Shown: in pieces, positions 12,233 through 35,251 of the stretch
How the letters are laid out: each line of letters starts with the position of its first letter
How positions within the stretch are numbered: position 1 is the first letter of the stretch
Assembly: GCA_026004875.1 (NCBI GenBank)
Contig: BPJZ01000006.1
Location: forward strand, 1 to 64,000
From: Candidatus Poribacteria bacterium
GTDB lineage: Bacteria; Poribacteria; WGA-4E; GCA-2687025
Length of the DNA stretch: 64,000 nt
Direction of reading: 5' to 3'
Translations under genes and position numbers: made by a program
Notes under the pieces: generated by a model
The model's input: the letters and a program-made list of their open reading frames with translations, nothing else
Databases searched by the model: none
Told to the model about the DNA's origin: nothing

Positions 12233-14514
12233 ATGCCCAGAGCTACCAAAAACCGGACCGGAACCAAACGCAAGGACACCACCCCTTCGAAGAGATCTCA
12301 GGAACCCCCCAAGGGCAACGGGGCGACGAGCAACGCCCGGCTGGTAATCGTTGAGAGCCCGGCCAAGGCGAAAACGATCAACCGGATCCTCGGTCAGGGC
12401 TACCTGGTGAAGGCCTCGATGGGACATATCCGGGACCTGCCCCCTTCGCGGGAGGCGGTGGACGTCGAGCACGACTTTCAACCGGAGTATGTGGTCATTG
12501 ACGGTAAAAAGAGGGTGCTCGCCGAGCTTAAGCGCGCAGCAAAGGGGGCCTCCGAGATTCTGCTCGCCGCCGACCCGGACCGCGAAGGAGAAGCAATCTG
12601 CTGGCACCTGGCCGACGAGCTTCGGACGGTGAAAAGGCCGATCCGACGCATCACCTTCAACGAGATCACCCCGGAGGCGGTGCGGCGGGCGCTGGAGCAT
12701 CCTCGCGAGATTGATCAGAACTTGGTGGACGCTCAACAGGCCCGGCGGGTGTTGGATCGGTTGGTCGGCTACCGAATCAGCCCGATCCTCTGGCGGAGCG
12801 TTCGCCCTGGCCTGAGCGCCGGTCGGGTTCAGTCGGTGGCGGTTCGCTTGATCTGCGAGCGGGAGGAGGAGATCCGCAACTTCCAGCCGGAGGAGTACTG
12901 GACGATCACCGCCCTACTGGAGACCGAGTCCGGCGAGCAGTTTTCGGCGCGGCTGTATCGGATCGGCGACGAGAAGCCTCAATACGGCACCTACGGCTTT
13001 GGGGTGGACGAGGCGCGAGCTCGGGAGATCGCCGCGGACGCCAAGGCTCAACCGTTCCGGGTCGAGTCGGTCGTTCGCCGGGAGCGGCGGCAGTCGCCGC
13101 GCCCGCCGTTCATCACGAGCACCCTCCAGCAAGAGGCCGCGCGAAAGCTGGGGTTCACCGCCCGAAGAACGATGTCGGTCGCTCAGAGCCTCTATGAGGG
13201 CGTCGAGGTCGGCGAGGAGACGGTCGGGCTGATCACCTATATGCGTACCGACTCGGTTCGGGTGGCCGAGGAGGCCCTTCAAGAGGTGCGCGGGTATATC
13301 GCTCAGACCTTCGGTGCGGACTATCGTCCGCTGCGCCCGCGTCGGTTTCGAGCCAGGCAAGGGGCTCAGGACGCTCACGAGGCGATTCGCCCCACCTCGG
13401 TCCTCCGGACGCCCGACTCGGTGCGCCCTTACCTGACTGAGGATCAGTACCCGGCTGTATCGGCTCATCTGGGAGCGGTTTGTCGCCAGTCAGATGGCCG
13501 ACGCCCTCTTTGATGTCACCACGGTTGAGGTGCGCGCGGGGAAGTACCTGTTCCGAGCTAGCGGATCTGTCGTGAAATTCCCCGGTTACTTGAGGCTTTA
13601 CACTGAAGCCCCTGAAGAGGAGTCCGGCGAAGAAGGCGACTCCTCCGGGACCCCGTTGCCGGAGGTGGCTCAGGGGGAACCGCTCCGGCCCTTAGAGATC
13701 ACGCCGCGGCAGCACTTCACGGAGCCTCCTCCTCGATATACCGAAGCCTCGCTGGTCAAGGCGCTTGAAGAGCTGGGGATCGGCAGGCCTAGCACCTACG
13801 CAACGATCATCTCCACCATTCAGGATCGGGGTTATGTTCGCAAGGTCGGCGGGCGCTTTCAGCCGACCGACGTGGGCGAGTTGGTGACCAAGCTGTTGAT
13901 CCGCAGCTTCCCGGAGATCCTTGATGTGGGTTTCACCGCCCGGATGGAATCGGAGTTGGACGAGATCGAGGAGGGGAAGCGCAACTGGGTCGCGATGCTC
14001 CGAGAGTTTTACGAACCGTTCTCCGCGCTTGAGAAGGCCTCCGATCGAATGTACGAAGAGCGGAAGCGGCTTGAGGAGGAGACCGAGATCCGTTGCGAAC
14101 AGTGCGGCCGACCAATGGTCGTTAAGTGGGGCCGATACGGCCGCTTTTTGGGTTGTAGCGGGTACCCCGAGTGTAAGAACACCCGACCTCTGGAAGGGGA
14201 TCGGCCTCGTCCCGAGCCGGTGGGGACCGGCGTTTCGTGTCCCAAATGTCAACGCGGGGAGCTGATGGAACGGCGCAGCCGTCGAGGGCGCACCTTCTAC
14301 GGGTGCTCGGAGTACCCTGACTGCGACTTTGTGATCTGGGACCCTCCCGTGCCGGACCTTCCCTGCCCGCGGTGTGGCGCGCCGTTTTTGACCCCTCCAT
14401 CGGACCAAGACTCGGCAGTACTATCAGTGCTACCGTCGGGAGGAGTGCGGCTATCGGTCGGAGCCGGAGCCGATCTCCGAGGACGAACCGTCCGTGGAGG
14501 CCGCCGAAGAGTAA
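12233..14514 (+). CDS. topA: DNA topoisomerase I (two frameshifts)
   Basis: A type IA topoisomerase that relaxes negative supercoils. The TOPRIM domain starts at about residue 38 with VIVESPAKAKTI, followed by DPDREGEAICWHL. The active-site Tyr is near 336 in ITYMRTDSVR. GRPSTYATIISTI marks the later core. Three C-terminal four-Cys zinc ribbons end the protein (CEQC...CSGYPEC, CPKC...CSEYPDC, CPRC...CYREEC). The frame breaks at C3 13450-13452 and C4 14392-14395; dropping one C from each gives about 759 aa ending at TAA 14512-14514. The N-terminal 35 or so residues are basic and low-complexity. The gene is essential in most bacteria, so the breaks are probably sequencing errors. Confidence 0.9.
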
Positions 14515-14644
14515 AGCCGGGTTCTCTAAGGGTTTCCCGGCCCCCCGTAAACGGGAGGGTTTGGCCAGGCGTTGGAGTTGGGGAGTTCTCACAAAGAGCT
14601 CACTGGCTTTTGGGTCTACCAGCGTAACGGCAAAGGTGAAGAAC

Positions 14645-20814: not shown

Positions 20815-21933
20815 GTGGAGATTGTTGGTCCGATTCCCTTGCTCACTACCACGCGTCGGGTGGGGGTCAACCCGGGCGATACATTCATCGGCGTTGGTCT
20901 TCAGTGCCTCTTTGAAGGGGTGCTGGGGCCTCAACGCTGGGTGTTGGTGGATCGATTCGGGCCAGAAGGGTTCCGGGAGCATCGGGAGCTGATCCAGCAT
21001 GCTCCTTTTTTGGTCTACGGGGGGATGCCCCAGTACAACAATTTCGATCGCTGGCGATTCTGGTACGATGATGCGCTTTGGCGGCGGTACGTCTTGCCCT
21101 GGGGGTTGCGGGTCTTCACGATGGCCGGGGGAGCCGGCTCCCGCGGACCGGTCGGCGTCGAGGAGTGGGTTGCCGACTGCCTTTCCAGCCGTCGGACTCG
21201 GGAGCTGATTCGGCTGCGCGTTGGGCCGAGCCTTGCGATCACCGTCCGCGACCCGTATGCCCATCGGCTCTTGGAGGCGTTGGAGGTCCCGCACGAATGT
21301 CTGCCCTGCTCGGCTACTTGGGCGGCCCGGATGTGGGGAATCGAGCCGGCCGAGCGCCGAGAGCGGGTGCTGCTCGTTCCCTCAGCCCCAAGGTATGCGC
21401 GAACTCGACATTCCAGGAACCCTTTCCGGAGGAAAAGGGGAACGGCCGAGTTTTCTCAACGCTGGGGAGAGTTGTACCGGGCCCTCCGCGCCGAGGGGTT
21501 CCCCGTCAAGGTGCTCTGCCACCAGGAGGCGGAGTACTGGGCGCTTCGAGGGATCGTCCCCGATCAGGACCTCTGGTTTCAGGGGGACGCCTACACCCTG
21601 CTTCGGGAGTACGCCTTTGCCGACGTGGTCGTTTCGGCGCGGCTGCACGGGAGCCTTCCAGCGTTTGGAATCCCTGGCACTCGCGTCGTGAACCTGTCGG
21701 TAGACGTCCGCGGGTCGGCGGTCGGCTTCTTCCCGAAGATTCAAAACCTCTCCTGGTCTGAGGCCAACCCCCAACGTGTCCTCGAAGCGATCCAGCAGGC
21801 AGAGCCGTCCTCTGAGGAGGACCTAAGACCCTACGAGGACGCTTACCACCGCGTCATTCGGGAGGGAATTAAGCGCTTAGAAGCGGAAGGCCCACCGTCG
21901 GGACAACGAACACGGACCCCTAAAGATCGGTGA
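20815..21933 (+). CDS. Polysaccharide pyruvyl transferase-like protein
   Basis: About 372 aa. The sequence starts near [17 protein letters not shown], like the 'GDxxI' opening of the CsaB/WcaK pyruvyl-transferase superfamily. It has [16 protein letters not shown] in the middle and [18 protein letters not shown], matching the family's conserved RLHG segment. Members move pyruvate from PEP to sugars on capsules or secondary wall polymers, or act as glycosyltransferase relatives. GTG 20815 is chosen because GAGAGGAGAG lies 10 bp upstream. It lies near the Wzz-like gene but on its own; its 3' end overlaps the convergent sigma-54 activator by 14 bp. Confidence 0.7.
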
Positions 21934-23494
21934 TCCCCAACTCGCGAATCAGCCGGGAAAGGTAGGTTCGTTGGATACCCAGCGCTTTAGCGGCTTCGGT
22001 GCGGTTACCGCCGTGGCGTTGGAGGATGCGACGGACGTGCTCCCGTCGGAAGATTCGCTGCGCCTCCTCAAGGGAGTCCGGGATCTCCTCCGACTTGGAG
22101 TTCACACCTGCGACGTCCACGGCCGATTCGCTCGCCAGCTTCTGAAAGGCGATCGGGAGATCGCTAGGGAGCACCTCCGGCGTCGTTGAGAGCACGACGG
22201 CGTGCTCGATGGCGTTTTGCAGCTCGCGGATGTTCCCCGGCCAGCGGTGGGCCAGCAGGAGCCGTTGTGTTTCCGGATGCAGCGCTCGGGGCCCTCGCCC
22301 CAATCGCCGTCGGCTCTCTTCTAAGAAGTGCTCAGCCAGAGGGAGCACGTCCTCCGGTCGCTCGCGGAGCGGGGGAAGCTCGATCGCGATGACGTTTAGT
22401 CGATAGTAGAGGTCTTCGCGGAATCGGCCTTCTTGGATTAACTGCTCTAAGTCTTGGTGAGTCGCTGCGAGGATGCGCACGTCCGCTTCGATCGGCTCGT
22501 TTCCTCCCAGCCGTTCAAAGCGCCGCTCCTGCAGCACCCGCAACAGTTTGGCCTGAAGGGGCAGCGGCATGTCGCCGATCTCGTCCAAAAAGAGGGTGCC
22601 CCCCTTCGCCAGCTCAAAGCGGCCGATTCGGCGGGCCGTCGCGCCGGTAAAGGCTCCGCGCTCGTGGCCAAACAGTTCGCTCTCCAGGAGGCTCTCCGGG
22701 ATGCTTGCGCAGTTGATCGCGATGAACGGCCCCTGAGAGCGCGGACTCAACGAGTGGATGAGTTGAGCGATCACCTCCTTGCCGGTTCCGCTCTCCCCAC
22801 GGATCAAGACGGTGCTATCGCTAGCGGCCACCCGTTCTACGATCCGGAGCACCTGCTGCATCTTGGGGCTCCGGGCGACGACCCTTTCCAAGGTGACTCG
22901 CTGGTGGCCGAGCTCCTCCCGGAGGTATCGGTTCTCTTCTTGAACCTGGGTGAACACATGGGCGTTTTCGATCGCCAGGCCGACCAGGTTGGCAAACAAG
23001 GAAAGCTGAACCGAGTCGTAGTCGGTGAACGGTTCGTCTACCCATTTGTTAATCACCTCGATGGCGCCGATCACCCGCCCCCTGGAGTGCATCGGTACGC
23101 AGAGAAGGGTATGGCACTCATAGCCGACCGTCTCGGCGATTTCAGAGGCGTGGTGTTCGTCTTGGCTGGCTTCGTTCGTCACGTAGACGCGATCGTGCTG
23201 GACGGTCCAGCCGACGATCCCCTGGTCCCAGGGCATGCGGAAGCCGACGATCTCCGCGCCCTTTTCGCCGGTAGCAGCGGCGCAATAAAGCTCCTGTCGG
23301 TTCTCATCGAGGAGCCAGATCGAGCTGGCGTCGGCCCGAACCAGCTCGGCAAGCATCTCCAAGGATTGGTGAAGAACGGCGTTCAGCTCCAGAGAGGAGT
23401 TGATCCGCTCGCTGATCTCTAAGAGCGCTTTCCACTCTCGCGTTGAGATTTGGGAGACCGCCGTCCGCGAGGAAGAGCTCCGACGCCGTTTCAT
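21920..23494 (-). CDS. GAF-domain sigma-54-dependent transcription activator
   Basis: A 524 aa bacterial enhancer-binding protein. A GAF domain (about 30-185) could sense a small ligand. The AAA+ domain has Walker A GESGTGKE (233-240), the sigma-54 contact loop GAFTGA (280-285), Walker B LFLDEIGD and the R-finger region. The C-terminal Fis-type helix-turn-helix ends [20 protein letters not shown]. It should activate sigma-54 promoters by ATP hydrolysis. No -24/-12 promoter was recognised near it. It is divergent from the fatty acyl reductase operon, and the two promoters overlap. Confidence 0.93.
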
Positions 23495-23659: not shown

Positions 23660-25330
23660 ATGAGGCAGGTGGCCGATCGAGTACAGCAGTTTCTACGCGG
23701 TCGCAATATCCTGGTCACCGGGGTGACCGGCTTCTTAGGGAAGCCACTCCTGGAGAAGCTTCTTCGAGCCGTCCCGGAACTGGGAAGGGTCTACCTGCTC
23801 ATCCGCTCGCAAAAGGGGGGCACCGGTCGGCCGGTGCCGGCTCAAGAGCGCTTTGAGCGCGAGGTGCTCGCCGCGGGCGCCTTCGATCGCCTTCGAGAGG
23901 AGTGGAAGGGCGACTTTGAACGCCGCGTCCGGGAGAAGGTCTGCGTCTTGAACGGGGATATCGGCCTGCCCGCCTTCGGCCTGAGCCCAGCGGAGTACCG
24001 CCGCCTTACCGAGACGGTTAGCGTGGTTGTCAACAGCGCCGCCGTCGTCGTTTTTGACGAGCGGTTGGACTACTCCCTGCAGTTGAACGCGGAGGCTCCT
24101 CGCCGGCTGATCCAGTTCGCCCGGGAGTGTCGCGAGGGGTACCTGCTGCACGTCTCGACGGCCTACGTCAACGGCCCGAACCCCGACCCGGCGCCGGAGC
24201 GATTGATCCCGCGCCGGTCGGAGCGGCCTGAGGGGTGGCGTGGCCCTCTTTTGCCGGACGATGTGGAGGCGGAGATTCAACAGCTTCTGGAGCGCTGCCG
24301 ACAGATCGAGGCGCACGCTGAAGAGCCGGCGGTTCGTCGGCAGATTCACATTCAGGCCCGACGGCTCCGCCGAATGCGTCCGGCGCTCTCCCCAAGTGAG
24401 GCGGTCGTGGCGGCCCGGGAACGTTGGCTCCGAGAACAACTGATTCAGCTGGGGATGGCCGTCGCCAAGTCGCGAGGCTGGAACGACACCTACACCTACA
24501 CCAAGGCGCTTGGGGAACAGGTTCTCGCCGAAAACCGTGGAGCCGTTCCAGTCGCCATTGTCCGGCCCTCGATCATCGAAAGCAGCTTCGAAGAACCAGA
24601 CGCTGGCTGGATCGACGGCCTGCGCATGGCCGACCCGATCATCATCGCCTATGGGAAGGGCCGGTTGCCCGAGTTTCCGGCCGTTCCTTCGATCCAGCTC
24701 GATTTAATTCCGGTGGACTTTGTTGTCAACGCGATGCTGGTGGCCCTCGCAGAACTGGGTCGGACCGGCGGGCTCCAGGTCTATCAGGTTGCCTCTGGCG
24801 AGGAGAATCCGGTAACCTTCCGGGAGCTGTACGACCACACACGGGCTCACTTTCAGCGAGACCCGATGCTGGATCGCAACGGTCGTCCGGTTCCCCTGCC
24901 CACGTGGAGCTTTCCGCCTCTGGAGCAGTTTCAGCGCCGGTTTTTGTGGACCCGGCTCCGACCGCTTCGGGCCGCTCAGGCGTTGGTGGAGCGCCTGCCG
25001 GGGCGCCGATGGCGCGAGCTTCGCTCCCGAATCGCCAGCCTGGCGAGCGCCTCCGAGCGACTCTATTATTACACCGTCATCTATGGGCCGTACATCACGC
25101 GTTCTTATCACTTTGAATCCCGGCGCACCCGAGCGCTCTTCGAAAAGCTCACGCCGGAGGAGCGAGCGCGCTGGAACTTCGACGTGCGCCGGATCGATTG
25201 GGGGCGGTACATTCAGGAGGTGCACATCCCCGGGCTTAAGCGGAACGTCTTGAAGATGGACCCCCGACGCGTTCGACCCCGGATCGCCGAAGAGGAGCTT
25301 CTGGCCGCCGAGGAGGACGAGGAGGCATGA
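23660..25330 (+). CDS. Fatty acyl-CoA/ACP reductase, alcohol-forming (FAR family)
   Basis: A 556 aa extended SDR of the fatty acyl reductase family. The N-terminal Rossmann motif [17 protein letters not shown] is followed by [13 protein letters not shown]. The catalytic Tyr-Lys pair is in [11 protein letters not shown] (about 276-286), and the loop RPSIIESS follows. The C-terminal FAR-like segment has [19 protein letters not shown]. Eukaryotic and marine-bacterial FARs reduce fatty acyl thioesters with NADPH to fatty alcohols for waxes or ether lipids. The start has a short GGGGA immediately before it; the stop overlaps the next start as ATGA. It is the first gene of the operon. Confidence 0.85.
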
Positions 25331-27951
25331 GCCGCTCTCCGCTCCAGGAGGACCGCTGTCTGCAAGAGCAGCCTGGGACGATCACCCAGCTACTGGCCCG
25401 TACCGCTGCGGAGCACCCCGCGCGACCGGCGCTGCAGATGTGGCGGGGCGATCGCTGGGAGTCGTGGACCTATCGACAGCTCCTGCAGACGAGTCAACGG
25501 TTAGCCGCCCTGCTCTTGGAAGAAGGGTTGGAGCCAGGGGACCGCGTCATCCTCCTGGCGGAGAGCCAGCCGGCGTGGGTGATCGCTTACCTGAGCGCCT
25601 CGGCCGCTGGTCTGACCGTTGTTCCCATGGATCCGCAGACGCGGCCTCAAGAGGTAATCGCAGCGGCAGAGTTCACCGAGGCTCGCCGAATCTTTGTCTC
25701 CAACTGGACGGCGGAGGCCCTCGAAGCGGCACTCCCCCGAGAGGGGCGACCCCCCCTTGTTCGAATCGAGCGGTGGGCCGCTGACGCCCCCGACGCGGCG
25801 CCGGCGCCTCTGTTGGACCGTGCCGATCCGGATCGGCCTGCCTCCATCGTCTTCACCGCTGGGATGCTGGTCGAGCCGCGCGCAGCAGTGCTGACCCATC
25901 GAAACCTCCTCTCCAACGTCTATGCGGTCTCGCAGGTGCTCCCTCCCTCGCCCGAGGATCGGGTGCTCTCGGTGCTCCCGCTGAACCACGTCTTTGAGTT
26001 TACGACGGGGCTTCTAGGTCCGATGAGCGCCGGAGCCACGATCACCTACAGCGGATCGCTCAATCCGCGAACGATCTCTTCGCTTCTGGCGCGGACGAAG
26101 GCCACCGTCCTGTTGGGGATGCCTCGGCTGTTTCAAATGTTCTACGAGCTCGCCTGTCGACGGGCCGAGAAGGGGGATGGACGATTTGAGCCGCTGCTTC
26201 GGGAGATGTGGGGGGCTTCGCTTCGCCTGCTGGTCAGCGGCGGGGCGGCTCTGGACCCGGAGGTGTACGATGCTTACCGGGCGATCGGCCTGCCGATTCA
26301 CGAGGGGTACGGACTGACCGAGGCTGGGCCGGTGCTGACGGTCAACCCCCCGGGCGCCTCCCGCCGCGGTTCCGTGGGGCGGCCGATCCCAGGCGTCGAG
26401 GTGCAGATTGACCGGCCCGATCCCAGCGGGGTGGGGGAGATTATCGCCCGCGGGCCAAACATCATGCTCGGCTACTACAAGAACCCAGAGGCGACCCGTC
26501 GTGTCCTCCGGGACGGGTGGCTCCACACCGGCGACCTAGGCCGCTTCGATCAGGACGGCTACCTCTACATCACCGGTCGAATTAAGAATATCATTGTTAC
26601 CAGCGCCGGGAAGAACGTCTACCCGGAAGAGGTCGAGCGGCTCTACGCCGGCCTACCTGGCGTTCGAGAGCTGTGCGTGGTGGGCGTCGCCGACGATCAC
26701 CGCCGGGAAGAGGTGCACGGCGTGATCGTCCTGGATTTGGCGACGGAGGAGACGATCAGGCGGGTTCAAGCGGCGATGCAGCAAGTGAGCTCGGAGCTCC
26801 CCTCTTATCAGCGAGTCCAGCGCGTGCACTTCCAGGACCGCCCGCTGCCTAAGCGGCCCGACGGCTCGGTGGATCGGGAAGCGGTCGCCGCTCAAGTGCG
26901 CGCCGGCATGGTTGAAGAACCTCTCTCGCCGAGCACGCCGGAACCGGGAGCTGCCGGCTGGCAGCCGACTCGGTGGCAACAGGAGCTCATCGAGGAGATC
27001 GCTCGGTTGGTCCAGGTGGAGCCGGAGCGCATCCGTCCCCGGACCAGCTTCGATCACGATCTCCAACTGGACTCCCTGATGAAAGTGGAGCTGATCGCAC
27101 TTCTGGAGTCCCGCTTTAACCTTGTGCTGCCCGACTACATCGCCTTGAAGTTTGAAACCGTTCAGGACGTCTTCGATTACTTGGCCCCCTATTTGGAGAG
27201 CCGGGCCAAGCCTCAGGAGCGTCTTCTTCCTCAGGAGAACGCCTATCGAGCTTTGCAGCGCGAGCGGTGCGTTCGGCGCTATCTCCAGAAGACACGCGCC
27301 CAGCGGATTGCTGCGGCAGCCTTTCGTGGGGTGCTGCGATGGGTCTACCGGCTGGGCTTCAGGCTTCGGGGGGAGGGGATGGAGCACCTCCCGGAGAAGG
27401 GGCCGTTCATCATCGCCGCCAATCACACCAGCCATCTGGACAGCGGTGCGCTGCTCTCCCTGCTAGGTCGGCGGGCGCGGGATGTCCATGTAGTGGGAGC
27501 TAAGGACTACTTCTTTAACTCCGACCTGAAGGGCTGGTTCGTCAGCACCTTTTTAAACGTGCTGCCCTTTGACCGTCAGGACGACTTTTTGCAGAGCCTT
27601 CAGCTTTCGGAGGACGCCGTTCGCTTGGGCCGCTCGCTGATCATCTTTCCAGAGGGCACCCGTTCCCTGAGCGGTCGGATGGCGCCGTTTAAGCCCGGTT
27701 TAGGTCTGTTGGCGTTGGAGCTTGGCGTTCCGATCGTTCCGGCCTATATTGAGGGCACCTTTGAGGCGCTTCCCAAGGGACGATCCCTGCCTCGATTCCG
27801 ACCGATCACCGTTCGGTTTGGCCCGCCGATCGATGTTTCGGAGTACCTGGCGCGCGCCGCCGGGGAGCCTCGTTATCTGCTCTACCGAGAGATTGCCCGT
27901 CGCGTTCAGGCGGCGGTCGAGGCGCTTTCGGCTTCCAGTTCTCGACGATGA
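25327..27951 (+). CDS. Acyl-adenylate ligase / ACP / PlsC acyltransferase fusion
   Basis: An 874 aa three-domain protein. An AMP-ligase (about 20-520) shows HEGYGLTEAGP and the LHTGDLGRFDQDGYLYITGR loop. An acyl carrier domain (about 540-630) has a phosphopantetheine Ser near 582 in LQLDSLMKVEL. A PlsC-type acyltransferase (about 680-870) has NHTSHLD near 698 and FPEGTRS near 774. The expected order is activation of a fatty acid, loading on the ACP and transfer to a glycerol-phosphate-type acceptor. The A3 loop reads FTAGMLVEPRAAVLTH, and the A10 Lys position reads PDGSVDR, both unlike the family consensus. It is coupled to its neighbours by ATGA overlaps. Confidence 0.85.
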   Translation: MSRSPLQEDRCLQEQPGTITQLLARTAAEHPARPALQMWRGDRWESWTYRQLLQTSQRLAALLLEEGLEPGDRVILLAESQPAWVIAYLSASAAGLTVVPMDPQTRPQEVIAAAEFTEARRIFVSNWTAEALEAALPREGRPPLVRIERWAADAPDAAPAPLLDRADPDRPASIVFTAGMLVEPRAAVLTHRNLLSNVYAVSQVLPPSPEDRVLSVLPLNHVFEFTTGLLGPMSAGATITYSGSLNPRTISSLLARTKATVLLGMPRLFQMFYELACRRAEKGDGRFEPLLREMWGASLRLLVSGGAALDPEVYDAYRAIGLPIHEGYGLTEAGPVLTVNPPGASRRGSVGRPIPGVEVQIDRPDPSGVGEIIARGPNIMLGYYKNPEATRRVLRDGWLHTGDLGRFDQDGYLYITGRIKNIIVTSAGKNVYPEEVERLYAGLPGVRELCVVGVADDHRREEVHGVIVLDLATEETIRRVQAAMQQVSSELPSYQRVQRVHFQDRPLPKRPDGSVDREAVAAQVRAGMVEEPLSPSTPEPGAAGWQPTRWQQELIEEIARLVQVEPERIRPRTSFDHDLQLDSLMKVELIALLESRFNLVLPDYIALKFETVQDVFDYLAPYLESRAKPQERLLPQENAYRALQRERCVRRYLQKTRAQRIAAAAFRGVLRWVYRLGFRLRGEGMEHLPEKGPFIIAANHTSHLDSGALLSLLGRRARDVHVVGAKDYFFNSDLKGWFVSTFLNVLPFDRQDDFLQSLQLSEDAVRLGRSLIIFPEGTRSLSGRMAPFKPGLGLLALELGVPIVPAYIEGTFEALPKGRSLPRFRPITVRFGPPIDVSEYLARAAGEPRYLLYREIARRVQAAVEALSASSSRR

Positions 27952-28628
27952 TCGCTTCAGCTTTGGTGGCCGCCTTTTTCGACATGGACGGGACGCTGTT
28001 CCGCTCTACGATTTTGCACCATTATGCTCTGGTGGCCACCTACCGGATGCCCTCCTGGAGGCGGGCGCTGTGGACGGGGGCCTTTCTGCCGTGGGTGCCG
28101 TACTTCTGGCTGCTGGACCGGCTGGACCGCGGGCGGATGAACCGGGCCTTTTATCGGCGATATCGGGGGAGGGGCGTTGGGCCGGCGCGGAGGGCCGTTC
28201 GTGAGGCTTGGGGGAGCTTCTGGGCGCCTCGACTCGTTGGTCCGTCGGTCCGACGACTTCAGGAGCACCAAGCGGCGGGGCACCGAACCGTTCTGGTGAC
28301 CGGTTCTCCGGAGTTTGTTGCCCAAGCGGTAGCCGAGCGCCTGGAGATTGGGACGGTTTTGGCCGCTCGATTGGAGGAACACGGAGGGCGCTTTACGGGT
28401 CGACTCCTGGGGTCGCCGCTGAGCGGGGAGGCCAAGGCCCAGGCGGTCTGGCAACTCGCCCGTCAAGAAGGGATCGATCTCTCCCGGAGCTACGCCTACG
28501 GCGACAGCGTCGCCGATCTGGCGATGTTGGAGCTGGTCGGACATCCGGTGGCGGTCTCTCCGTCTCGCCGGCTTCGGAAGATCGCTCAGGTCCGAGGCTG
28601 GCCCATCTTGGAGGCGAACGGGGAATGA
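27948..28628 (+). CDS. HAD-IB family phosphatase (SerB-like)
   Basis: A 226 aa HAD subfamily IB protein. The nucleophile motif FFDMDGTLFRS is at about residues 10-20. Motif II VLVTGSPEFVAQAVAE and motif IV YGDSVADLAMLELVG follow. Relatives of the SerB/CicA type are often encoded beside or fused to PlsC acyltransferases and are thought to dephosphorylate lipid or serine phosphates. A hydrophobic segment around residues 35-55 (ALWTGAFLPWVPYFWLL) may lie on the membrane. Start and stop both overlap neighbours as ATGA, so it belongs to the lipid operon. Confidence 0.85.
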   Translation: MIASALVAAFFDMDGTLFRSTILHHYALVATYRMPSWRRALWTGAFLPWVPYFWLLDRLDRGRMNRAFYRRYRGRGVGPARRAVREAWGSFWAPRLVGPSVRRLQEHQAAGHRTVLVTGSPEFVAQAVAERLEIGTVLAARLEEHGGRFTGRLLGSPLSGEAKAQAVWQLARQEGIDLSRSYAYGDSVADLAMLELVGHPVAVSPSRRLRKIAQVRGWPILEANGE

Positions 28629-29614
28629 CGCTTCCCAAGGATCAGCTCCTCTGCGGTGATGTGTTGGAGCTTCTTCCCCAGCTTCCGGACCGCTCGGTTC
28701 AGTTAGTGATCACTTCCCCTCCCTACTACCGACAGCGGAACTACGCCGCCGGCCCGCAGGAGATCGGAAACGAGCCGACGGTACAGGAGTATCTCAGTCG
28801 TCTGCTGGCCGTCTTCCGCGAGTGCTGCCGGGTGGTGCGGAACGACGGGAGTCTTGTTTTTAATCTCGGCGATAAATACCAAGATGGGGGCCTTCTGTTG
28901 ATCCCCTATCGGTTTGCACAGGCAGTCCTCGAGGAGGGGCTGGCCTTCTTGGTGAACGTGATCACCTGGGTCAAGCGAAATCCGACTCCGCGGCAGTTCC
29001 GGCGTCGGTTGGTTCCGGCGACGGAGCCGTTCTTTCATTTTGCCAAGACCAAACGGTATTACTATAATCTGGACGAGTTCCAGACCGGGCGCGGGGCTGG
29101 TTCGTCGCAGCGGGCGGGGAGCCGAGTTGGCCAGCGGTACTTCACTCTGATCGAGCGTTCCGATCTCAGCGCCGAACAGAAGGCCGCCGCTCGAGAGGCT
29201 CTGCAGCAGGCGATCGAAGAGGTGCGCTCCGGGCGGATCGCCGGGTTCCGGATGAAGATCCGCGGGATCCATGCGGAGCCCTTCGGGGGACAGAGCGGGG
29301 GACGGCAGTACCACCTAGAGCGCAACGGCTTTACGATCATCCGGATTCACGGGCGGCCCATCAAGCGGGATGTGATCGAAACGCCCGTCGAGACGCTCCC
29401 TGGGACGGGACATCCGGCGGTCTATCCGGTCCGCGTGGTCGAGGAGTTCCTTCGGCTGCTGACCCGTCCGGGGGACCTGGTGTTGGACCCCTTTGTTGGC
29501 TCCGGGACGACGGCGGTGGCCTGTCGCCGTACCGGCCGCCACTTCATCGGGATCGATCTGAGCTCGGAGTTCCTGGAGATTGCTCGGAGGCGGCTCCAGG
29601 AGGTGAGACGATGA
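28625..29614 (+). CDS. DNA methyltransferase (beta-class, SPPY motif)
   Basis: A 329 aa site-specific DNA methyltransferase. It opens LLCGDVLELLPQLPDRSVQ followed by the catalytic TSPPYY, and ends with the SAM-binding motif DPFVGSGTTAVACRRTG and FIGIDLS. The order catalytic motif then SAM motif is that of the beta class. SPPY is most common in N4-cytosine enzymes but also occurs in some N6-adenine enzymes. No endonuclease is next to it. ATG 28625 overlaps the HAD stop and its own stop overlaps the ADH start, so it is embedded in the lipid operon. The recognition site cannot be read from sequence. Confidence 0.88.
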   Translation: MTLPKDQLLCGDVLELLPQLPDRSVQLVITSPPYYRQRNYAAGPQEIGNEPTVQEYLSRLLAVFRECCRVVRNDGSLVFNLGDKYQDGGLLLIPYRFAQAVLEEGLAFLVNVITWVKRNPTPRQFRRRLVPATEPFFHFAKTKRYYYNLDEFQTGRGAGSSQRAGSRVGQRYFTLIERSDLSAEQKAAAREALQQAIEEVRSGRIAGFRMKIRGIHAEPFGGQSGGRQYHLERNGFTIIRIHGRPIKRDVIETPVETLPGTGHPAVYPVRVVEEFLRLLTRPGDLVLDPFVGSGTTAVACRRTGRHFIGIDLSSEFLEIARRRLQEVRR

Positions 29615-30834
29615 AGGCCGTTCAGTATCGAAAGAGCGTTCCTCGGTATCTGCTCGTGCGGCTTTTGGGGCGACGGTTTCGCAGGCTTCCGACCGGACCG
29701 TTAGGGTTGGCCCGTCTCCGCGAGGTTCCTCAGCCCCGGCTGCCCGGGCCCGAATGGGTCCGAGTGCGCCCCCGACTCAGCGGTATCTGCGGCTCCGACC
29801 TTGCCACGCTCTTTGCCAAGGGAAGCCCCTACTTCTCTCCCTTGGTCTCCACGCCGTTTGTCTTAGGGCACGAGGTGGTCGGGGTCGTCGAGGAGGTCCA
29901 CGAGGAGTGCGGGCTCCAAGCGGGGGATCGGGTCGTCTTGGAACCGGCGCTCTCCTGTCGAGTTCGTGGCCTTGAACCGGCCTGCGATCGGTGCGCCGAG
30001 GGGCGAAGCCATCTCTGTACCAACGTCGTCCGCGGGGCGATCTCCGCAGGGGTGCAAACGGGCTACTGCCGGGACACCGGCGGCGGCTGGAGCGAGTCGT
30101 TTGTGGCCCATCCCGTTCAGTTGCATCGCGTTCCGGAGGAGCTCAGCGACGAGGCGGCGGTTCTGATCGAGCCGCTGGCCTGTTGTGTTCACGGAGTGCT
30201 CCAGCGCCCTCCCCGTCCGGAGGAGACGGTACTTGTCCTCGGTTGCGGGACGATCGGCCTGTTGACGATTGCCGCGCTTCGGGCGTTGGGGTTCCCAGGA
30301 CGGCTGTTGGCTTTGGCGAAGTACCCTCATCAAGGGCGCTGGGCGCAGCGGCTGGGCGCCGACGGGCTTCTGCCGGTAGGGAAGCAACTGTACGCGGCGG
30401 TCTGCGAGGAGACCGGGGCCACCCTCCTACAGCCGGAGCTGGGAGGACCGGTCCTGCTGGGTGGAGTGGATCGCGTCTACGACTGTGTCGGCTCCTCCAG
30501 CTCCATTGACGCCGCGGTTCGGTTGACTCGAAGTGGTGGGTCGGTCATCCTGATCGGGATGCCGGCAATCCTCCGGAACGTGGACTGGACCCACATCTGG
30601 CATAAGGAGCTTGAGTTGGTGGGCGCCTACGCCTACAGCGAGGAAACCGTCGAGGGGGCCCGCTGGCGCACCTTTTCGTTGGCGATGGAGCTGATCGGCA
30701 AGCATCCTCAGTGGGCCGAGCTGGTTACCCACCGCTTCCCTCTGGAGCGGTACTCCGAGGCGATCCAAACGGCGGCCCGCGTCGGGAAGTCCCGGGCGAT
30801 CAAGGTCGTCTTTCAGATCGAGTCGGGCCTGTGA
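29611..30834 (+). CDS. Zinc-dependent alcohol dehydrogenase
   Basis: A 407 aa medium-chain dehydrogenase. The catalytic zinc site shows SGICGSDLATLF and LGHEVVGVVEE. A structural zinc lobe has Cys in LSCRVRGLEPACDRCAEGRSHLC. The Rossmann motif is LGCGTIGLLTIAALRALG. It would oxidise or reduce an alcohol/aldehyde with NAD(P). The substrate is unknown; next to a fatty alcohol-forming reductase it could act on fatty alcohols, aldehydes or a glycerol/hydroxy-acid intermediate. It starts within the methyltransferase stop (ATGA) and precedes the LarA-like gene by 24 bp. Confidence 0.88.
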   Translation: MKAVQYRKSVPRYLLVRLLGRRFRRLPTGPLGLARLREVPQPRLPGPEWVRVRPRLSGICGSDLATLFAKGSPYFSPLVSTPFVLGHEVVGVVEEVHEECGLQAGDRVVLEPALSCRVRGLEPACDRCAEGRSHLCTNVVRGAISAGVQTGYCRDTGGGWSESFVAHPVQLHRVPEELSDEAAVLIEPLACCVHGVLQRPPRPEETVLVLGCGTIGLLTIAALRALGFPGRLLALAKYPHQGRWAQRLGADGLLPVGKQLYAAVCEETGATLLQPELGGPVLLGGVDRVYDCVGSSSSIDAAVRLTRSGGSVILIGMPAILRNVDWTHIWHKELELVGAYAYSEETVEGARWRTFSLAMELIGKHPQWAELVTHRFPLERYSEAIQTAARVGKSRAIKVVFQIESGL

Positions 30835-30858
30835 GCTGGCGAGGAAGGAGATGAAACG

Positions 30859-32481
30859 ATGGCGGAAGAGGCGGCCCTGTACGACGTGCCAGACCGTTCC
30901 CATCTAGTTCAGTACGTCCAGGATGAGCGCCGGCGTTATCTGATGTTTTACGGTGAGGGATGGCTTTATGAGTCGCTCCCTAAGGGGAGCCGGGTGATCT
31001 ACGGGCCGGAGCCGCTTCCCGGCGTTCCGGACGTGCGCGCCGCCGTCGAGCAGGCGATCGAGAACCCCATCGAGACCGAGCCGCTCTCCGCTCAGCTGCG
31101 TCCCGGTATGAAGGTGACGATCGTCTTTGACGACCTGTCGTTAACGCTGCCGCCGATGCGCCGGCCCGACTTCCGACAGGTGGCCATTGAGCTGCTCTTG
31201 GAGAAGTTGGACCGCGCCGGAGTGGAGGATGTCCACCTGATCGCCGCTCTGGGAATCCACCGCCGAATGACCCCCCGGGAGCTGCGGGGAATTCTGGGTC
31301 GTCGCATCTTCGATCGGTTCTATCCCCAGGGGCGGCTCTACAATCACGATGCCGAGGACCCCGATAACTTGGTCCTCCTGGGTAAGACAGAGGCAGGGGA
31401 GCACGTCGAGCTCAACCGGCGCGCCGTCGAGTCGGACCTGGTCATCTACGTGAACCTCTGCCTGACGGCGATGGACGGCGGCCATAAGTCGCTTAACACC
31501 GGCATCACCTCTTACCGAAGTCTCTACCACCATCACAATCCTCAGACGTTACTTCACGCTCGGTCCCTGATGGACCCGCGTCGCTCGGCGCTCCACGCTT
31601 CCCTGGAACGGATGGGCCGCCTGGTAAACGAGAAGCTGAACGTCTTTCACATCGAAAGCACCTATAACACCGCGACCTTTCCGAGCGCCTTTTCCTTCCT
31701 TACCAAGCGAGAGGAGGACTGGTCCGCGCTGGACAAGCTCCTGTTTCGAATCAACAAGGCGGCTACAGAGACCCTCCCTCGCCCGGTGATTCGAAGGGTC
31801 TTCCACAGCATTAAAGCGCCCTACGGGGTGACCAGCGTCCAAGCGGGGAAAACCGACCCGGTACACGCGATCACCCTCAAAAACATCTATCGTCAGCAGC
31901 TGGTACCGGTGGAGGGACAGGCCGACGTTCTGATCGCCGGAACGCCCTACCTGGGCCCCTATAACGTCTATTCGATTTTGAACCCGCTTTTGGTGCACTG
32001 CCTGATGCTGGGATATATGTTCAACATGTATCTTGGGAAGCCGCTGGTCCGGGAGGGGGGCGTTCTGATTCTGGCCCACCCGATGAGCTACGAGTTTCAT
32101 GAGGAGCATCATCCCTCCTACATTCGCTTTTTTGAGGAGGTGCTCCCTCAGACACGCGACCCGGAGGAGATCTTCCAGAAGTACGAACGGGCCTATGCGG
32201 AGGACCCGGAGTTTCGCCGAAGGTTCCGGGAGGGCTACGCCTTCCACGGTGCACACGCGATGTACATGTGGTATTGGGGCACCCATGCGCTGCACCATTT
32301 GGGGAAGGTGATCGTCCTCAAGCCGGAGAACGATCGGGCCCGGGAGGCCTGCCGGCGGATGGGCTACGACACGGCCGATTCGCTGCCGGAGGCGTTGGAA
32401 AAGGCGCAGGAGGTCGTCGGCGCCGATCCTCAGATCACCCTCTACCACTGGCCCCCGATCTTCCTCTGTCAAGTGAGCTAG
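30859..32481 (+). CDS. LarA-like (DUF2088) lactate-racemase-family protein
   Basis: A 540 aa protein with a LarA/DUF2088 domain. Recognisable parts are VTIVFDDLSLTLPP, AALGIHRRMTPREL (His near 134) and AMDGGHKSLNTGI (Lys near 210). The last two match the places where LarA has an active-site His and the Lys that holds the nickel-pincer cofactor. Lactobacillus LarA is about 425 aa, so this one has about 115 extra residues, mostly C-terminal and rich in His and aromatics. Its GGAAGGAG site is strong. No cofactor-maturation genes (larB, larC, larE) are in the window. It may racemise or epimerise another 2-hydroxy acid in the lipid pathway. Confidence 0.75.
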   Translation: MAEEAALYDVPDRSHLVQYVQDERRRYLMFYGEGWLYESLPKGSRVIYGPEPLPGVPDVRAAVEQAIENPIETEPLSAQLRPGMKVTIVFDDLSLTLPPMRRPDFRQVAIELLLEKLDRAGVEDVHLIAALGIHRRMTPRELRGILGRRIFDRFYPQGRLYNHDAEDPDNLVLLGKTEAGEHVELNRRAVESDLVIYVNLCLTAMDGGHKSLNTGITSYRSLYHHHNPQTLLHARSLMDPRRSALHASLERMGRLVNEKLNVFHIESTYNTATFPSAFSFLTKREEDWSALDKLLFRINKAATETLPRPVIRRVFHSIKAPYGVTSVQAGKTDPVHAITLKNIYRQQLVPVEGQADVLIAGTPYLGPYNVYSILNPLLVHCLMLGYMFNMYLGKPLVREGGVLILAHPMSYEFHEEHHPSYIRFFEEVLPQTRDPEEIFQKYERAYAEDPEFRRRFREGYAFHGAHAMYMWYWGTHALHHLGKVIVLKPENDRAREACRRMGYDTADSLPEALEKAQEVVGADPQITLYHWPPIFLCQVS

Positions 32482-32506
32482 TCCAGCGGATGAGGAGCGC
32501 GGGCGC

Positions 32507-33412
32507 GTGCCGATACCGCTCCTGATCAACCCTCACAGCGGCGGAGGGCGCGGCCGTCGAGTCGGCCAAGTGGCCGTCGAACGACTTCGTGCGCTGGGGC
32601 ACGCCGTCGCTGCGGAGGTGGTCGAGGGGGCCGAGCGGCTCCAAGAACGGGTCCGAAGCCTTCGAGAGGGGGGAACGGAGCTGCTCCTTCTCTGCGGAGG
32701 GGACGGAACGGTTCACCGTGCCTTGCCGGAGCTGGTGGGCGGCCCGACGGCGCTCGGAGTGGTGCCCGCCGGACGTGGAAACGATCTGGCTCAGGCGTTG
32801 GGCTTCCCCACCCGTTTGGATCGAGCGATCCGAGCGCTTTCCAAGGCGATGGAGTGGCAAACAGTTCGGGTGGTTGACCTAGGACGTGTGAACGGGCGCT
32901 ATTTTGCCACAGCGGCCACCTGCGGCCTCGACAGCCGTGTTGCCGAATGGGCGCGACGAACCTCTCGCGGGCCGCTCCCCTCGTGGGCCTATCTCCTGGG
33001 AACGATCCGGGTCCTCCTCTCCGATCCTCCTCGTCGCATTCGCCTCGTCGCCGACGGAAGGGCGATCCACGACGATCTGGCGCTGATGTGTCCTGCCCTG
33101 AACGTGCCCCGTTACGGCGGGCGGTTCCAGATGGCGCCTTTGGCCCAAATGGACGACGGACTGCTGAACTACTGCTGGGTCGAACGGCTCCCCCCCTGCC
33201 GGGCAGCGCTCCTGATCCCTCGCGCGCTCCGCGGAACCCATCTGGATCATCCAGCGGTGCATCCGGGAACTGCTCGCGCTCTCCTCCTGGAGAGCGATCC
33301 TCCAGAGGCGATCTATGCCGACGGCGAGCCGGTCGCGACGACGCCCTGTCGCGTCGAGGTGGTGCCCCAGGCGCTGCGCGTTCTTGTTTTCCCGCCGGCC
33401 CTCGCAGTATAG
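32507..33412 (+). CDS. Diacylglycerol kinase family lipid kinase (DagK/YegS-like)
   Basis: A 301 aa soluble lipid kinase. It opens LLINPHSGGGRG, with the ATP-binding CGGDGTVHRAL near residue 65, VPAGRGNDLAQALGF, and the C-terminal IYADGEPV...VEVVPQALRV. Members phosphorylate diacylglycerol, sphingoid bases or similar lipid alcohols. The GTG start has GGAG about 12 bp upstream. It follows the LarA-like gene by 25 bp and is probably the last gene of the lipid operon. It could phosphorylate the product of the pathway or recycle diacylglycerol. Confidence 0.88.
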   Translation: MPIPLLINPHSGGGRGRRVGQVAVERLRALGHAVAAEVVEGAERLQERVRSLREGGTELLLLCGGDGTVHRALPELVGGPTALGVVPAGRGNDLAQALGFPTRLDRAIRALSKAMEWQTVRVVDLGRVNGRYFATAATCGLDSRVAEWARRTSRGPLPSWAYLLGTIRVLLSDPPRRIRLVADGRAIHDDLALMCPALNVPRYGGRFQMAPLAQMDDGLLNYCWVERLPPCRAALLIPRALRGTHLDHPAVHPGTARALLLESDPPEAIYADGEPVATTPCRVEVVPQALRVLVFPPALAV

Positions 33413-33460: not shown

Positions 33461-35251
33461 ATGAGCTCGATCTTCGTGGCGCTGCTGGCCTTTGTCGGTT
33501 TCATTGTGGCCTACCACACCTACGGCCGATTCCTCGCCGATAAGCTGTTTGGCGTGGACCCCAACCGCAAAACTCCCGCCGTCGAGGTGAACGACGGGGT
33601 GGATTACGTTCCGACCAAAAAGGAGGTGCTCCTTGGGCACCACTTCACTTCGATCGCTGGGACAGGGCCCATCGTCGGACCGGCCATCGCGATCATTTGG
33701 GGATGGGTTCCGGCGCTGTTGTGGGTGGTCTTTGGCTCGATCTTTATCGGCGCCGTCCACGACTTAGGGGCGCTGATCCTCTCGGTTCGCAACCGGGGCT
33801 CTTCCATCGGCGACCTTTCCGAAAAGGTCGTCAGCCGGCGGGTCAAGCGGGTTTTCCTCTATATCATTCTCCTAGCGCTGTTCATCGTCCTTGCCGTTTT
33901 TGCGCTGGTGATCGCGACGATCTTCTCCCTCTATCCCGAGTCGGTGCTGGCCGTCTGGCTGGAGATTCCAATTGCGCTGTGGGCCGGCTACATGATCTAC
34001 AAGCGAGGGGCCTCGCTCTGGAAGGTCGGCCTGATCGCCGTTGTGCTGATGTACGCGACCGTAATCCTGGGGGCCTACGTTCCAATCCGGCTGCCGGACA
34101 ACCTCCCGTTGGGGATGAACTCGGTGGTGGCTTGGTCGCTTCTACTGTTCCTTTATGCGTACATCGCTTCAGTCCTGCCGGTCCATCGGCTGTTGCAGCC
34201 GCGTGACTACATTAACGGCCATGAGCTCTACATTGTCATGGCGTTGCTCGTGATCGGGATTCTCGTGGCCCACCCGGTGATGGTCGCACCGGGCTTCAAC
34301 TTCCAGGTTCCCAGCCCCTCGGAGGTGGGATGGGGCGGATGGGTTCACGCGTTGATCACAGCAGGCGGCGTCGGGATTCAAGGGGCGCCGGCTTTCATCC
34401 CCTTCCTGTTCATCACGATCGCCTGCGGGGCGATCTCTGGCTTTCACTGCATGGTCTCCTCCGGGACGACTTCTAAGCAGTTGGCCTCGGAGAAGGACGC
34501 CCGCCTGGTCGGTTACGGGGCGATGCTGTTGGAGGGCGCCTTGGCCACGCTGGTGATCATCGCCTGCGGCGCAGCGATCGGCCTGAAGCCGGGGGCGAAC
34601 GGTCTGCCGTTAGGAGCGGCGGCCTTTGCGGAACACTACTCCTCCTGGGCCTCTGCGGGTGGCTTGAAGGCCACGCTGGGCGCCTTTGTGGACGGCTCTG
34701 CCCAGCTGATCATGGCGCTGGGGATCCCTCGGAACATCGCCGTCGCGATCATGGGCGTCATGGTGGCCTCCTTCGCGGCCACGACGCTGGACACGGCAAC
34801 TCGGATTCAGCGGTACGTCATCACTGAGATCGGGAGCGATCTGGGGATCGCTTCGCTGCAGAACCGCCACGCAGCGACGCTGCTGGCCGTCGGCTCGGCG
34901 GCGATTTTGGCCCTCCAGAAGGGCGGCACTGGCGGGCTGACCCTTTGGCCGCTCTTTGGAGCGACCAACCAGCTCTTGGGCGCGCTGACGCTGCTGGTCC
35001 TGACCGTTTGGCTGGCAAAGCAGCAGAAGGCCATGCGCTATACGGCGGTGCCGATGGTCTTTATGCTCACGATGACCGCCTGGGCGCTGGGGGCCAACCT
35101 GGTGGACTTCTTTGCCAGAGGCCAGTGGCACCTGTTCGTCATCGGGGCGATCGTCACCGTCCTTGAGGTCTGGATGGTGGCCGAAAGTCTCGTCCATCTG
35201 GGAGCGGCGCGGCGACGGCTCGCCACCGAAGGAATCGGCGCCGGAGGATGA
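33461..35251 (+). CDS. cstA: Carbon starvation protein A (peptide/pyruvate transporter)
   Basis: A 596 aa inner-membrane transporter with many hydrophobic helices. It has the family hallmarks YGRFLADKLFGVD, TSIAGTGPIVGPAIAIIWGW, and SGFHCMVSSGTTSKQL. CstA/YjiY relatives import peptides or pyruvate, often when carbon is short. The start has GGGGGAGGAG. There is a likely promoter at the end of the preceding gene. Length and motifs are complete. Confidence 0.93.
   Translation: MSSIFVALLAFVGFIVAYHTYGRFLADKLFGVDPNRKTPAVEVNDGVDYVPTKKEVLLGHHFTSIAGTGPIVGPAIAIIWGWVPALLWVVFGSIFIGAVHDLGALILSVRNRGSSIGDLSEKVVSRRVKRVFLYIILLALFIVLAVFALVIATIFSLYPESVLAVWLEIPIALWAGYMIYKRGASLWKVGLIAVVLMYATVILGAYVPIRLPDNLPLGMNSVVAWSLLLFLYAYIASVLPVHRLLQPRDYINGHELYIVMALLVIGILVAHPVMVAPGFNFQVPSPSEVGWGGWVHALITAGGVGIQGAPAFIPFLFITIACGAISGFHCMVSSGTTSKQLASEKDARLVGYGAMLLEGALATLVIIACGAAIGLKPGANGLPLGAAAFAEHYSSWASAGGLKATLGAFVDGSAQLIMALGIPRNIAVAIMGVMVASFAATTLDTATRIQRYVITEIGSDLGIASLQNRHAATLLAVGSAAILALQKGGTGGLTLWPLFGATNQLLGALTLLVLTVWLAKQQKAMRYTAVPMVFMLTMTAWALGANLVDFFARGQWHLFVIGAIVTVLEVWMVAESLVHLGAARRRLATEGIGAGG

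Follow-up and report, generated by a model that had tools for sequence, protein, structure and literature searches.

Among the closest described systems is the elb operon of Myxococcus xanthus (elbA-E; Lorenzen 2014, as reviewed in PMC9131029), whose main route to ether lipids is independent of alkyl-DHAP synthase. Its published gene order is elbB-elbC-elbD-elbE, with ElbC described as of "unknown function"; ElbD is built in the order FAR-ACS-ACP-AT, and most alkyl and vinyl ether lipids disappear when elbD is mutated (PMC9131029). Acyl adenylation has been shown for M. xanthus ElbD. ElbD-like clusters are also reported from sponge Poribacteria and Acidobacteriota (PMC9426513), with a single NRPS-like ElbD core gene flanked by genes for hydrolases and oxidoreductases; the portion of that report considered here mentions neither a LarA-like gene nor decay of the ligase. 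Two further comparisons concern individual genes. LarAH groups 14-17 (NF052592; PMC7583248, PMC12611868) conserve the lysine that binds the nickel-pincer nucleotide (NPN) and the nickel histidine but lack one catalytic histidine, and the two single-histidine members whose structures have been solved are associated with sugar genes. PDB entry 7eoz is an alcohol-forming fatty acyl-CoA reductase of the FAR1 type, with NAD_binding_4 and Sterile domains and a YxxxK motif.

The locus studied here lies in a 64,000-nucleotide stretch (G000:C6:1-64000, the window) of a 2.84-Mb assembly that is 64% complete; G, L, and f numbers below denote genomes, loci, and families. The window probably comes from the same phylum as the sponge Poribacteria clusters. 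Judged by sequence comparison, the following genes probably form an Elb-type ether-lipid operon with ElbD divided between two genes and a zinc-type alcohol dehydrogenase (ADH) gene standing in for elbE, a reading to which we give a probability of roughly 0.72.

23660..25330, + strand: fatty acyl reductase of the alcohol-forming FAR family (PF07993 NAD_binding_4, E 1e-65; PF03015 Sterile), corresponding to the FAR domain at the N terminus of ElbD
25327..27951, + strand: AMP-ligase-like/ACP/PlsC fusion (PF00501, PF00550, PF01553), equivalent to the rest of ElbD, with a degenerate ligase active site
27948..28628, + strand: HAD-IB phosphatase, counterpart of ElbB (TIGR01490, above cut-off), with an ATGA overlap with the ligase gene
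28625..29614, + strand: N4/N6 DNA methyltransferase (PF01555, E 9e-45), start ATG at 28625, almost certainly a passenger
29611..30834, + strand: zinc-type MDR ADH (PF08240, PF00107)
30859..32481, + strand: LarA-like NPN enzyme of the LarAH14/15/16 family (NF052592, 785.9 bits against a cut-off of 740; Lar_N protein), counterpart of ElbC
32507..33412, + strand: DagK/YegS-type lipid kinase (PF00781 DagK_cat, PF19279 YegS_C)

By their ORF coordinates, the seven genes are co-directional, with four ATGA overlaps joining the first five and gaps of 24 and 25 bp before the last two, as the initial annotation had described. Each gene identity that it named is confirmed by Pfam or NCBIfam profiles, although its count of seven is correct only with the DNA methyltransferase, which its title omitted. 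The order of FAR, ligase, ACP, and PlsC is the same as in M. xanthus, as are the neighboring HAD gene (ElbB) and the presence of a LarA-like gene at the elbC position. However, the window's ElbD is two genes, unlike both the M. xanthus protein and the single core gene of the sponge clusters; the gene order differs, an MDR ADH takes the place of the ElbE-type SDR, a lipid kinase lies downstream, and a DNA methyltransferase gene is inserted.

The first two genes are ElbD cut in two. By Pfam, the domain set FAR-ACS-ACP-acyltransferase is spread in ElbD order over the two overlapping genes. In most relatives within the class the same parts form one fused protein of 1,410-1,510 aa with the FAR at its N terminus, which matches the window's FAR and ligase genes end to end and is mostly followed by the HAD gene. 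An earlier suggestion that the operon is a distributed version of ElbD thus holds, with the HAD gene matching elbB and the LarA-like gene in the place of elbC. The FAR keeps its TGxxGFLGK and YxxxK motifs and both its NAD_binding_4 and Sterile domains, and its best PDB match is 7eoz (E 2e-88); it differs from that enzyme in being bacterial, in its elb-type operon, and in having a substrate that is only predicted. The split form occurs in family f1 (the window, G001, G002, G004, and G005) and in two genomes of family f2 (G023 and G053; L043 and L044), so the split arose, or was reversed, more than once. A named Candidatus Poribacteria locus (L045, genome G059) nests within family f2 of the window's class in both FAR and LarA trees, and on these two gene trees the class very probably belongs to Poribacteria.

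In the ANL enzyme superfamily, adenylation is carried by the P-loop and A10 lysine motifs. The window's ligase has FTAGMLVEPRAAV and LPKRPDGS at the positions where ElbDs with intact ligase motifs (type A) have TSGTTGxPKG (P-loop) and LPRTATRK (A10 lysine). In window-type ElbDs (type B; Poribacteria and some Acidobacteriota), every P-loop examined is eroded and most of the proteins have lost the A10 lysine, whereas both are intact in type A, a pattern that suggests a lineage-wide pseudo-ligase. Because these motifs are degenerate, activation of acyl chains by the fusion protein, proposed in the initial annotation, is doubtful and probably does not occur. The domain probably serves a structural or binding role, in which case acyl groups would come from acyl-ACP or acyl-CoA made elsewhere. 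The ACP motif LDSLM and the PlsC motifs NHTSHLD and FPEGTRS are kept in the fusion protein.

The gene order is not confined to this assembly, so that the refuting condition set in the initial annotation, an order seen nowhere else, does not hold; the module also occurs in Myxococcota and Acidobacteriota. Two members of the window's own family (G004 and G005) have FAR-LIG-HAD-ADH-LarA-DagK-CstA without the methyltransferase. In Acidobacteriota, one genome has DagK-ElbD-HAD-ADH-LarA (G370, L271), those with type A ElbD have HAD-LarA-ElbD-SDR (L275-L278, L282, L283), and three have HAD-LarA-FAR-SDR-DagK with the FAR standing alone, the cluster being without ligase, ACP, and acyltransferase (G317, G353, G410; L279-L281). 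In Myxococcota, an example is HAD-LarA-ElbD-SDR-DagK (G121, L212; SDR and DagK assigned by Pfam). As G004 and G005 keep the order without the methyltransferase and the same set turns up in two further phyla, the arrangement is not a matter of chance. The HAD gene follows ElbD in the window's class and stands ahead of LarA-ElbD in Myxococcota, and DagK genes adjoin elb loci in all three phyla. Since the FAR-only clusters keep them, HAD, LarA, SDR, and DagK, together with FAR, look like a core of five.

It is also important to weigh whether the row is really one pathway. It might be two independent modules lying side by side, FAR-LIG-HAD for a lipid and ADH-LarA-DagK for, e.g., hydroxy-acid or sugar-acid metabolism. 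The FAR-LIG-HAD and LarA-DagK parts are indeed on different contigs in G001 and G002, known LarA enzymes use hydroxy acids, carbohydrate genes accompany other single-histidine LarAHs (PMC12611868), and a xylulokinase gene lies downstream of the operon in the window. We nevertheless consider this very improbable, as all the genes stand in one row in G370 and G121, in Myxococcota and Acidobacteriota the LarA-like gene has HAD on one side and ElbD on the other, and co-occurrence of ElbD and LarA is complete in the Myxococcota sample described next.

Across 141 evenly sampled Myxococcota genomes, the LarA-like gene was present in 45/45 with a FAR-containing ElbD and in 0/96 others (Fisher p = 6e-38, uncorrected for relatedness); a few of these 45 genomes give an incomplete ElbD match, at a contig end or in a broken frame. 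Of the 34 pairs that share a contig, 33 are <5 kb apart. Among 199 Acidobacteriota genomes, all 15 with a type A ElbD have the LarA-like gene (counts again uncorrected for relatedness), and the other three above the LarA family cut-off carry the FAR-only cluster. For 26 named genomes with an ElbD-like ligase, it was found in 6/6 with a FAR at the locus (one of a divergent type) versus 1/20 without. FAR and LarA distance matrices are correlated (r = 0.88 across 32 loci, 0.94 for Myxococcota alone; 0 of 2,000 permutations as high), and the FAR and the LarA trees both place one Myxococcota genome (G130, L211) with Acidobacteriota, which together suggest joint inheritance. Co-occurrence and linkage strongly indicate that the LarA-like gene has a part in the Elb pathway.

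Many, but not all, genomes with type B ElbD carry the LarA-like gene. One genome of the same class (G030) and seven Acidobacteriota with type B ElbD have no close LarA-like gene, and a named genome (G081, L236) lacks FAR at its HAD-LarA-SDR-DagK locus. A divergent LarA, sharing 36-38% identity with that of the window, is found in families f2, f7, and, apart from G010, f6. As a rule it stands away from ElbD, but in G370 the two are linked. The divergent LarA of f2 (L225, L229, L235) adjoins genes for an AAA+ ATPase, a chlorite dismutase-like protein, an ABC-2 permease, a MetE-like protein, and ATP sulfurylase.

Because the Myxococcota order HAD-LarA-ElbD-SDR equals the published order elbB-elbC-elbD-elbE, we infer, from gene order and not from the M. 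xanthus sequence itself, that elbC encodes a LarA-type nickel-cofactor enzyme. No paper connecting ElbC or ElbD with the LarA family was found in the literature searched. We regard this link as the valuable point of the analysis; the earlier interpretation is partly supported, being largely right but in need of the corrections given here.

The active site of the LarA-like protein bears on what it might do. Residues H134, K210, H225/H226, and D91/D92 are conserved in >=97% of 54 elb-type LarA-like sequences, and the NPN-linking K210, the nickel ligand H225/H226, and the first catalytic histidine H134 were matched to 9q2u. For the second catalytic histidine (H174 of L. plantarum LarA), the aligned loop is deleted in elb-type members, with N199 nearby. 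The window's protein thus resembles LarAH groups 14-17, although it is linked to ether-lipid rather than sugar genes. The initial annotation had the ADH and the LarA-like protein acting on alcohols or hydroxy acids; to this must be added that the latter is missing one of the two racemase histidines. One alternative is that it is a true 2-hydroxyacid racemase or epimerase of the pathway, its part being just to provide a hydroxy-fatty acid or C3 precursor with the correct stereochemistry, as its superfamily and the conserved NPN lysine, nickel histidine, and first catalytic histidine would allow. This seems rather doubtful given the loop deletion, and Desguin et al. proposed that such LarAH groups may not invert a stereocenter and could carry out another hydride reaction (PMC7583248). 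As the second racemase histidine is absent, the enzyme probably performs non-racemizing hydride chemistry. An AlphaFold model of the protein, built from four sequences, had a mean pLDDT of 52 and was set aside. LarC, which is needed for NPN synthesis, was found in 43/45 ElbC-bearing Myxococcota genomes versus 57/96 others. In the window's class, it was not found in G000 (64% complete) and G003, the two least complete genomes, but was present in all 57 others searched.

No clear ortholog of the ElbE-type SDR was found in the class, the SDR matches in G000, G003, and G011 being unlinked and of 30-32% identity. The ADH is present wherever ElbD and LarA are in this class, with few exceptions, and lies between HAD and LarA in G004, G005, and the acidobacterial G370. 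It probably fills the role of ElbE as a keto or aldehyde reductase. With an MDR ADH instead of the ElbE-type SDR, the operon is better said to work like Elb than to belong fully to the elb operon type. As for elbA, no SDR was recognized among the genes beside the Myxococcota clusters.

The course of the pathway that we infer would be as follows. By family and motifs, the FAR would turn a fatty acyl thioester into a fatty alcohol by reduction, and this would then be joined to a three-carbon unit without alkyl-DHAP synthase. The LarA-like NPN enzyme most likely takes part in this second step; its reaction, reversible removal of a hydride, is a guess. The ADH (elsewhere the SDR ElbE) would reduce a keto or aldehyde intermediate, the HAD phosphatase and DagK-type kinase would remove and restore phosphate to give a 1-O-alkyl-glycerol phosphate, and the ACP/PlsC part would add the second chain. 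The LarA-like enzyme, dehydrogenase, HAD, and kinase would thus all act on the C3 or headgroup side. Consistent with the earlier remark that no alkyl-DHAP synthase was visible, none was found in the genome either (64% complete). The one candidate examined there, the sole FAD-oxidase_C locus of G000, is GlcD/GlcE-like and frameshifted, and was rejected.

A different fatty-alcohol product, such as a wax ester, an alkyl glycoside, or another neutral lipid, would also account for an alcohol-forming FAR. The three Acidobacteriota FAR-only clusters indicate that the core product could be something other than an acylated phospholipid, and Pontiella has ElbD homologues although ether lipids were not detected in it (PMC11868695). 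On the other hand, the domain set and neighbors match the elb operon, whose mutants lose ether lipids, and the PlsC domain and DagK-type kinase point to a glycerolipid, which together make such a product unlikely. For the latter reason, the wax route offered in the initial annotation is set aside; Pfam also found no wax synthase (WS/DGAT) domain in the operon.

Within the ether-lipid reading, ElbC/LarA could itself be the ether synthase of the ElbD pathway, an idea that we offer tentatively and think more likely wrong than right by a good distance. The NPN enzyme would transiently oxidize a carbinol of a C3-phosphate, phosphate would leave, the fatty alcohol would add, and the hydride would return, a logic that can be likened to that of S-adenosylhomocysteine hydrolase. 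If true, biology would have one more means of forming ether bonds in lipids, and the NPN cofactor would serve in something other than a racemase. More generally, the link between ElbC and LarA joins two problems, ether bonds made without alkyl-DHAP synthase and the substrates of a nickel-cofactor family. FAR, HAD, LarA, dehydrogenase, and DagK may also serve as a marker set for ether-lipid makers, probably better than ElbD homology alone, since the latter picks up many ligases without FAR.

The DNA methyltransferase is almost certainly a passenger outside the lipid module. It adjoins HAD only in the window and in G003 (L233 4750-5817), being absent from G004 and G005 and not seen in other elb-type loci, and was rejected as a working part of the operon on this ground. 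No restriction enzyme was recognized beside it in the window or G003 loci. In G003, a 381-aa ORF without a Pfam match adjoins the methyltransferase, and ADH and LarA are separated by a PhyH (phytanoyl-CoA dioxygenase-like) gene (L233 1582-2337).

Several features surround the operon. A divergently oriented gene for a GAF-type sigma-54 activator of the NtrC type lies upstream (21920-23494, - strand); no sigma-54 promoter motif was found in the 165-bp gap between it and the operon, and counts of the motif in the window were not above chance. A CstA carbon-starvation transporter gene (33461-35251) begins 48 bp past DagK, and as it also directly follows DagK in G002, G004, and G005, it may belong to the operon transcript. 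Farther upstream, a DNA topoisomerase I gene (12233-14627) appears to be broken across the overlapping ORFs 12233-13513 and 13494-14627, perhaps by an assembly frameshift.
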